Shown piece after piece: positions 22,145-23,609 of a stretch of 64,000 bases of DNA (position 1 is its first letter; each line of letters opens with the position of its first letter). Under the pieces are notes generated by a model. The model had not been told where the DNA came from. It saw nothing but the letters and a program-made list of their open reading frames with translations, and ran no database searches. Source of the DNA: Jiangella endophytica (GTDB lineage: Bacteria; Actinomycetota; Actinomycetes; Jiangellales; Jiangellaceae). The stretch spans positions 496,001 through 560,000 of the forward strand of contig NZ_QVAI01000003.1 in the NCBI RefSeq assembly GCF_003427025.1. The letters run 5' to 3'. A program made the position numbers and the translations under genes.

Positions 22145-22160
22145 CCGCCGCGACCATCGG

Positions 22161-22234
22161 CGTTGATCTTGGAGTTGTTCGGCCATCTATCCGGCAAATC
22201 GGACCCCGTGAGCCGAACAACTCCAAGATCAACG
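22161..22234. repeat. palindromic element, copy 1 (left of DUF559 gene)
   Basis: The 23-base arms (22161-22183 and 22212-22234, beginning CGTTGATCTTGGAGTT) are perfectly complementary. The 28-base centre contains a smaller TCCG/CGGA hairpin. The whole element recurs in the opposite orientation at 23433-23503. It is seven-tenths stem, so it will form a hairpin in RNA or a cruciform in DNA. Confidence 0.95.
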
Positions 22235-22342
22235 TGGCTGGGTGGCGGGGCGTCTGTCCACACCTGAGGGTCGCGGCGAGGGTTGTCCACATTCCGGTGT
22301 TCGGTCGCGGTGGCGGCGCCGCGATTCCGGGAACGTCGGAGT

Positions 22343-23257
22343 GTGCGGCATGGACGAGACGACCCCGGCCGCCGGACGCAGCCGGTTCCCGTACGGCTCG
22401 CCGGCGCGGAGTTCACCTATGCCACCGCTCGAGCCGCCGGCGTCAGCAAGGATCGCCTCTGCGGCCCGGCGTACGTCCGGCTGCACCGCGGTGTCTATGT
22501 CGCGCGCGAGCTCGAGATGGACGACGACCGGCGCGTGCGGGCGTTGCTGCTGGCCTTGCCGGCTGACGCCGCGTTGTACGGAGCGACGGCGGCCGCCTGG
22601 ATGGAGCTCCCGGCCGAGCTGCCGGCCGACCTGCAGGTCATCGTCCCGCCGGGCACGGTGCCGCGGCGGCCTGGGGTGGAACCACACGAGGGCCTCGGTC
22701 CTGACGACGCGATGGTGTATCGCGGCGTACGGGTGACGACCCCCGAGCGCACGTGGCTGGATCTGTCACGGACGCTCGACGACACCGAGCTGGTCGTGGT
22801 GGGCGACGCGATGGTGCGGCGCGGGCTGACTACGTGCAACCGCCTGGTGGAGACGGCGGACGCGGCGCGACGTCGGCGCGGGATCGTCCGGGTGCGGTCG
22901 GTGGCCAGGATGGTCCGCGCTCGGGTGGACTCGCCGCAGGAGAGCAGGCTGCGCCTGGTGCTCGTGGCCGGGGGCCTGCGTGAGCCCACGGTCAACCCGG
23001 ATCTGTCGGACGGACGCGGCGGCTGGATCGGCCGTCCGGATCTCGCCTACGAGGACGCGAAGCTCGCGATTCAGTACGAGGGCGACGTCCACCGAGTGAA
23101 TGCCCGGCGCTGGCGTGCGGACATCGGCCGCGACGAAGTGCTGCGCGATCACGGCTGGGAGGTCGTGCGTGTCACCGGAGCCGACCTCGCCCGTCCGCAG
23201 CAGCTGTGCGCCCGGATTCGGCGCTTGCTCGACCACCGGGGCCGTCGGCTCGGCTGA
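22343..23257 (+). CDS. DUF559-type protein with AbiEi-like N-terminus (possible endonuclease fold)
   Basis: A 304-residue protein. Its N-terminal half has the winged-helix pattern of AbiEi-type antitoxin domains (ARAAGVSKDRLCG, YVRLHRGVYV). Its C-terminal 110 residues match DUF559, a Vsr/PD-(D/E)XK-like nuclease fold: Glu200 (SPQESRLR), Asp233 (GRPDLAYED), Glu246 (AIQYEGD), and the closing RDEVLRDHGWEVVRVT. The function is not established for this family; DNA binding or cleavage is inference. The start is doubtful. GTG 22343 is in frame, but an ATG at 22350 in another frame gives a more family-like N-terminus (MDETTPAAGRSRFPYGSP). That suggests a lost base near 22401-22410. The gene stands alone, bracketed by two inverted copies of a palindromic repeat. 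Confidence 0.78.
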   Translation: MRHGRDDPGRRTQPVPVRLAGAEFTYATARAAGVSKDRLCGPAYVRLHRGVYVARELEMDDDRRVRALLLALPADAALYGATAAAWMELPAELPADLQVIVPPGTVPRRPGVEPHEGLGPDDAMVYRGVRVTTPERTWLDLSRTLDDTELVVVGDAMVRRGLTTCNRLVETADAARRRRGIVRVRSVARMVRARVDSPQESRLRLVLVAGGLREPTVNPDLSDGRGGWIGRPDLAYEDAKLAIQYEGDVHRVNARRWRADIGRDEVLRDHGWEVVRVTGADLARPQQLCARIRRLLDHRGRRLG

Positions 23258-23350
23258 CCCGCTCGGCCACCGCGCCCGCGCACCGGGGTCGTCGGCGCGG
23301 CTGACGCGTCCGGCCACCGCGCGCCCCGCCACCGCGCTCGACCACCGGGA

Positions 23351-23420
23351 CCGTCGGCCCGGCCACCGTCGGCCCGGCCACCGCGGCCCGGCCACCGCGG
23401 CCCGGCCACCGCGGCCCGTC
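23351..23420. repeat. short tandem repeat (14-15 bp GC-rich units)
   Basis: Four to five adjacent copies of GTCGGCCCGGCCACC / GCGGCCCGGCCACC follow the DUF559 gene. Looser copies extend back to the stop codon at 23257. No gene is visible here. Confidence 0.85.
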
Positions 23421-23432
23421 CGTCCCCCCGAA

Positions 23433-23503
23433 GTTGATCTTGGAGTTGTTCGGCCCACGGGTCCGATATGTCGGATAGATGGCCGAACAACTCCAAGATC
23501 AAC
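23433..23503. repeat. palindromic element, copy 2 (right of DUF559 gene, inverted)
   Basis: Perfect 23-base arms (23433-23455 and 23481-23503), identical to copy 1 through GTTGATCTTGGAGTTGTTCG. The centre matches the reverse complement of the copy 1 centre almost completely, including the TCCG/CGGA mini-hairpin. The two copies therefore face each other across the gene. Confidence 0.95.
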
Positions 23504-23524: not shown

Positions 23525-23585
23525 CTGACGGGGCCGCACCCGGCCGGTGCGAACGGGGTGAACCGGCGGCCGGGTGCGGCGTCAG
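23525..23585 (-). terminator. hairpin terminator of the membrane-channel-like gene
   Basis: GCCGCACCCGGCCG (23533-23546) pairs perfectly with 23567-23580. CTGAC/GTCAG extends the stem across small bulges. It lies just after the stop (23610) of the minus-strand gene. Confidence 0.7.
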
Positions 23586-23609
23586 GGGAGCCTGGGTGTG
23601 ACGTCCGGG

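Follow-up and report, generated by a model that had tools for sequence, protein, structure and literature searches.

The window, a stretch of 64,000 nucleotides of Jiangella endophytica (contig NZ_QVAI01000003.1, positions 496,001 to 560,000 of the forward strand), contains a nuclease-type gene enclosed by two palindromes (Table 1). The neighbors of this cassette are a Rieske-type and an MscS-type gene, and no AbiEii toxin gene is present at it. The initial annotation had described palindromes of about 72 bases with perfect 23-base arms, lying in opposite orientation, sharing an inner TCCG/CGGA hairpin and enclosing a single gene. Their sizes and the perfect 23-nt arms of palindrome 2 agree with this description, whereas the 23-nt arms of palindrome 1 contain one mismatch. 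Orientation and inner hairpin were borne out by a 46-nt stretch over which palindrome 1 matches the reverse complement of palindrome 2 at 96%, and the gene does stand alone between them. Palindrome 1 is built of a nearly invariant outer arm (GTTGATCTTGGAG and CTCCAAGATCAAC), a variable inner stem and an asymmetric center with a small hairpin. Arm matches occurred four times in the window compared to 0.00 expected from shuffled sequence, which rules out chance, and the two palindromes folded strongly as single-stranded DNA (z about -8 each) and as very stable RNA hairpins. A separate hairpin, CCGCACCCGGCCGGTGCGAACGGGGTGAACCGGCGGCCGGGTGCGG (23533-23586), where the MscS-type gene has its 3' end, stands out by its strong conservation in most Jiangella species, which does not extend to the sequence around it.

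Table 1 Features of the cassette, numbered from the first letter of the window
Feature	Position	Strand	Remarks
C-rich left flank of palindrome 1	22145..22161	.	G-rich right flank at 22234-22252
Palindrome 1 (upstream, A type)	22162..22233	.	72 nt
DnaA-box-like 9-mer CTGTCCACA	22254..22262	+	Upstream of gene
DnaA-box-like 9-mer TTGTCCACA	22283..22291	+	29 nt from the box at 22254..22262
Nuclease-type gene	22343..23257	+	GTG start, 304 aa; AbiEi-like N-terminal region and EDxHD/Vsr-like nuclease domain
GC-rich imperfect tandem repeats	23290..23432	.	Between gene and palindrome 2; GGCCCGGCCACCGC-like at 23290-23413
Palindrome 2 (downstream, A type)	23433..23503	.	71 nt, inverted relative to palindrome 1

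The protein is predicted to combine an AbiEi-like region with a nuclease-type domain

PADLOC matched residues 24-180 of the window protein to AbiEi (6e-17), and its AbiEi models matched 14 of 15 members; Pfam placed REase_MTES_1575/DUF559 at the C-terminus, below cut-off for the window protein. These matches support the DUF559/AbiEi-type label originally given to the gene. An AlphaFold2 model built with 72 homologs (mean pLDDT 94.7) was matched by Foldseek to the Streptococcus agalactiae AbiEi antitoxin (6y8q, E 1e-5), to Mycobacterium tuberculosis Rv2827c (1zel) and to the catalytic domain of the homing endonuclease I-Bth0305I (3r3p, TM 0.70 on target). A profile search of the PDB returned 3hrl and, weakly, 3r3p (E 0.012). 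A weak profile match to DnaA domain IV in the same database (E 0.46) was treated as chance. No match of the window protein to a Y1 (HUH) transposase was found in the Pfam, PADLOC or fold searches.

Residues S197, E200, R204, D233 and H250 were invariant among 72 sequences, and D260 was conserved in over 90% of them. Together with the I-Bth0305I match, the invariance of E200, D233 and H250 upholds the Vsr/PD-(D/E)XK-like C-terminus proposed in the initial annotation. Judged from sequence and without a residue-by-residue superposition, E200, D233, H250 and D260 appear consistent with the E-D-H-D set from which the EDxHD family takes its name. The residue just before the YxG motif is Q in clade A compared to E in clade B (clades as defined below). 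Because Q here takes the place of clade B's E beside a conserved motif, nuclease activity in clade A is not certain, and there is no biochemistry.

Palindrome type follows protein clade in Jiangella

In a comparison of 12 Jiangella genomes, clade A homologs (65-81% identical) were flanked by A-type palindromes, and those of clade B (39-44% identical) had a palindrome of their own, GTTGATCATGGAG...CTCCATGATCAAC, mostly 60-61 nt long. Nine A genes carried 16 A palindromes, and 14 B genes or gene fragments carried 22 B palindromes, with no mixed A/B cassette in any of the 12 genomes, though several hold both types. Both sides were flanked wherever contig and copy were intact, and one-sided cases were contig ends or decayed copies. 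The two palindromes of one clade A cassette were 0.91 identical compared to 0.72 for random pairs (p about 1e-5). Distant DUF559 paralogs (32-36% identical) had no palindromes. DUF559 paralogs free of A-type palindromes had at first been taken to refute the link; this verdict was dropped because the clade B gene has its own B-type pair.

Upstream, the distance between palindrome and start codon ranges from some tens to about 125 nt. The downstream palindrome begins about 46-54 nt past the stop codon in most of clade A, whereas many clade B genes have their stop codon within it; in the window, the tandem repeats stretch this gap to 175 nt. Judged by spacing, such repeats are missing from most other clade A cassettes. 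One clade B gene (G004, L063/L070) carries an in-frame internal deletion, in a genome with only four palindrome copies by a broad pattern.

Solo copies and element structure

A search for the arms in the genome and its relatives, as the initial annotation had proposed, found 56 copies in the source genome by the strict pattern GTTGATCTTGGA-N-TCCAAGATCAAC (71-73 nt among the copies listed) and further copies in Jiangella relatives. Arm matches genome-wide numbered 53 and 55 compared to 0 with a reversed-pattern control. With three mismatches allowed over 23 nt, the outer 12 nt were nearly invariant and almost all changes fell in the inner part. Strong covariation of the inner stem (offsets 14-21, z mostly 6-12) was seen across 168 unique elements from Jiangella, so that sequence is kept in the outer arms and pairing in the inner stem. 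An outer helix formed by pairing of the flanks was weak beyond composition (z up to 4.7 by base-by-base matching) and is not claimed.

Of 55 copies placed in genomic context, 34 lay between convergent and 18 between tandem genes, two were divergent, one was at a contig end and none was inside a gene. In about 20 of the 55, a neighboring gene ends on the TGA of GTTGATC; these counts rest on crude gene calls. The initial annotation had reasoned that the palindromes would be ordinary terminators if they were spread through the genome at transcript ends without any link to DUF559 genes. The first half of this holds, since the palindromes are mostly at transcript ends, but they are strongly linked to DUF559-type genes and the mobile reading is therefore not refuted on this count. 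That they are transcription terminators unlinked to the gene is barely credible: the link recurs in Jiangella and beyond, in contradiction to it, the outer 12 nt are nearly invariant in sequence rather than in pairing alone, and sites empty of the element exist.

Copy number does not simply follow the presence of the gene. One genome (G008) contains 109 A- and B-type copies without an A or B gene, yet another (G010) has an open B gene and only two copies, which counts against a nuclease-driven reading. The A-type inner stems of G008 are weaker (0.755) than those of G007 (0.868) and G000 (0.838; p 0.002 and 0.005), as expected of decay without the gene, although the sample is limited.

Empty and occupied sites

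Cassettes occupied at least 11 loci (five A and six or more B). At the window locus, between the Rieske-type and MscS-type genes, the cassette was present only in G000 and G007, and ten other species were without it; one of these, G011, has a solo B palindrome there. G010 and G001 (L246, L251) carry a repeat containing GCGGTGAAGCATGCCGCGGGCGCTCTTGACGC at this site.

Empty sites in close strains, which the initial annotation had suggested looking for, were found. A solo site of G000 between pyrD- and pyrF-type genes (names that are our reading of translated ends) is clean-empty in six species. A elements stand at this site in G000, G008 and G011, of which the G011 copy differs in its inner stem, and G002 retains a GATCAAC remnant. 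The inserted unit here takes in the C-rich left and G-rich right flank. Since most G000 copies have such flanks, and the empty pyrD-pyrF type site lacks both flanks and palindrome, those of palindrome 1 probably also belong to the inserted unit. A fixed-length target-site duplication could not be established: the one possible case is a TGACC repeat (5-6 bp) at this site, and flanks elsewhere evolve too fast. In G009 and G003 (L362, L367) the same site holds a different palindromic family, GTCACCTGATC...GATCAGGTGAC.

A second site was empty in seven species and held a different palindrome family in two. Sites of cassettes and solo copies overlap: the position of a solo A element in G000 is that of a B cassette in G001 and G011. 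At another site shared by G001 and G011 (L353, L354) there is a further palindrome, CATGATCATCAACCTTTCGTGC...GCACGAAAGGTTGATGATCATC. Palindromes at orthologous sites were no more alike than random ones (0.74 compared to 0.72, p 0.15). Switches of whole stems at orthologous sites suggest replacement, although this pool was chosen for carrying palindromes and gives no rate. The elements are mobile, and the empty sites and the number of cassette loci support the mobile or selfish cassette originally proposed; mobilization by the protein itself is only inferred.

These sites bear on whether the protein might be an AbiEi-like DNA-binding regulator or autoregulator, with the palindromes as operators and bidirectional terminators spread by an unrelated process. 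The similarity to AbiEi at residues 24-180, the fold match to 6y8q and the occurrence of very stable RNA hairpins at 3' ends would all suit such a regulator. We consider it unlikely. The nuclease residues are invariant in 72 homologs, the gene has a palindrome on either side, insertions of the palindromes are found at unrelated loci, one of them a pyrD-pyrF type operon junction, and promoter-type operators would be unexpected 3' of convergent genes.

Homologs in other actinomycetes

Homologs at E <= 1e-30 were found in 149 of 395 Actinomycetes genomes. An inverted-repeat search detected matching palindromes on both sides of 28 of the 59 top non-Jiangella homologs, compared to 12 of 694 mismatched pairs at the same cut-off. 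A local alignment of upstream against downstream flanks, which is independent of palindrome calling, exceeded a score of 20 for 48 of the 59 homologs compared to 5 of 869 mismatched pairs and 9 of 308 generic genes, and eight of those nine generic genes themselves carry the palindromes. The association of gene and palindrome therefore holds far beyond the window, and the expectation that other copies would flank DUF559 genes was met both by this survey and by the clade-specific pairs of Jiangella. That genes in many genera are bracketed in a clade-specific way is no coincidence, which makes it very improbable that this is a type IV toxin-antitoxin or phage-defence gene of the AbiEi family lying between repeats by accident; the PADLOC AbiEi matches would fit such a gene, but it is single and no AbiEii partner lies between the palindromes.

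The palindrome sequence differs lineage by lineage, and solo copies are dispersed in the genomes that were checked for them. One genome with the gene (G015) has 46 copies, compared to 1, 0, 0 and 0 in its congeners without it (G017, G019, G020 and G021). Solo copies numbered 17 in G217, and four genomes of one family (G033, G055, G072 and G087) have 12-16 copies each. Two of these, G033 and G055, hold two bracketed genes each, and by inspection their solo sub-families resemble the two cassettes. In G078, a genome 78% complete, 22 palindrome copies with GTTGATCATGGA arms lie on several contigs and no homolog was found; the copies listed have an additional GTTGATCAAGG/CATGG half-site in the center.

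Genomes such as G008 and G078, with many copies and no gene, might suggest that a different transposase mobilizes the palindromes and that the DUF559-type gene, a mere passenger, came to lie between two copies time and again. This seems quite unlikely to us, given that a single gene family is found at near-constant spacing and that palindrome type matches protein clade even where both types coexist.

DnaA-box-like motifs precede the gene

The second of the two 9-mers upstream of the window gene, TTGTCCACA, is the high-affinity actinomycete DnaA box (PMC4285127). Boxes of the form [TC][TC]NTCCACA were found within 200 nt upstream of 19 of 19 Jiangella cassettes, five of six distant DUF559 paralogs and 44 of 59 homologs elsewhere, compared to 1 of 59 downstream, 1 of 236 in-gene and 22 of 2109 genome windows. 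Two boxes 29 nt apart are usual in clade A, and this spacing is also kept in distant homologs. The distant paralogs that these 9-mers precede are those without palindromes. The leader boxes may couple expression to replication or may be the protein's own site.

Discussion

REP and REPIN elements are short dispersed palindromes in mostly extragenic 3' positions, and copies of them flank a lone RAYT gene. In REP-RAYT systems gene and repeat form type-specific pairs and solo copies far outnumber the gene, whose product (RAYT, TnpA_REP) is an HUH (Y1) tyrosine transposase. The Jiangella cassette meets this pattern in its dispersed extragenic palindromes and its dedicated flanked gene, and the initial analogy to the REP layout is strengthened by the type-specific pairing. 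It differs in that an AbiEi-like region and an EDxHD/Vsr-like nuclease stand in place of the HUH Y1 transposase, and in its long outer arms (12-13 nt) with C-rich and G-rich outer flanks. MITE and TIR transposons likewise have conserved termini, non-autonomous copies and empty sites, but here each terminus is a complete palindrome and the cassette has no DDE transposase.

In classical homing, insertion destroys the target. The cassette gene, unlike EDxHD homing genes, lies between two complete palindromes, so that the carrier would keep the target if the palindrome is the target. I-Bth0305I reportedly binds a target of nearly 60 bp as a dimer (PMC3943268). Its Vsr-like catalytic fold and E...D...H...D residues resemble those of the present protein and its target size fits palindromes of 60-72 bp, but the cassette gene is outside any intron or intein and its nuclease domain is joined to an AbiEi-like region. 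The resemblance of that region to 6y8q and 1zel recalls AbiEi of type IV toxin-antitoxin systems, from which the present system is set apart by an additional nuclease domain, by palindromes on either side and by solo copies. The system behaves like REP-RAYT without an HUH transposase, carries the EDxHD catalytic domain without the homing layout, and has an AbiEi-like part without a toxin. In open-access PMC text, which leaves out bioRxiv and most subscription literature, we found no description of DUF559/MTES_1575 with palindromic or mobile repeats, or of Vsr with REP. The evidence suggests a small mobile genetic element of a kind not yet described, and we rank plain terminators, a toxin-antitoxin or defence gene and pure operators lower than a mobile element.

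We think it likely that the cassette is an autonomous member of a family of REP-like mobile palindromes, in which an AbiEi-EDxHD nuclease lies between copies of its recognition palindrome; the other approximately 54 genomic copies would be solo, non-autonomous elements. The AbiEi-like part presumably binds DNA, and the protein would bind the invariant outer arms, probably as a dimer, since the dimer of I-Bth0305I on its target would suit palindromes of this length. It may then nick or cut the palindrome or its extruded hairpin, and this would help solo elements or the whole cassette to be copied to new positions, most of them directly downstream of genes, either by single-stranded hairpin transfer or by break repair off another copy. 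The DnaA boxes in the leader may tie expression to replication. Binding, cleavage and copying by the AbiEi-EDxHD protein are inferred without biochemistry, whereas the clade-specific pairing of gene and palindrome, the dispersal of solo copies, the insertion polymorphism, the homogenized pairs within cassettes, the conserved nuclease residues and the covarying stems are observed. Further points tell against this reading: selection may retain strong hairpins downstream of genes for their terminator function, the retention of two whole palindromes in the cassette is unlike classical homing, and a target-site duplication has not been established beyond one possible case.

With somewhat less confidence, we favor the broader interpretation that palindromic mobile elements of this kind are actinobacteria-wide, each lineage having its own palindrome, and are spread by an AbiEi-EDxHD nuclease whose expression is possibly linked to DnaA. 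Both the protein and its DNA partner have been identified, independent pairs of them are numerous, and the DnaA-box link makes replication-coupled spread testable. If true, this would show what many so far unexplained DUF559/MTES_1575 genes, a large group, do; it would account for a class of dispersed palindromes in genomes of high GC content, and would mean that REP-like elements can evolve around a non-HUH enzyme class.
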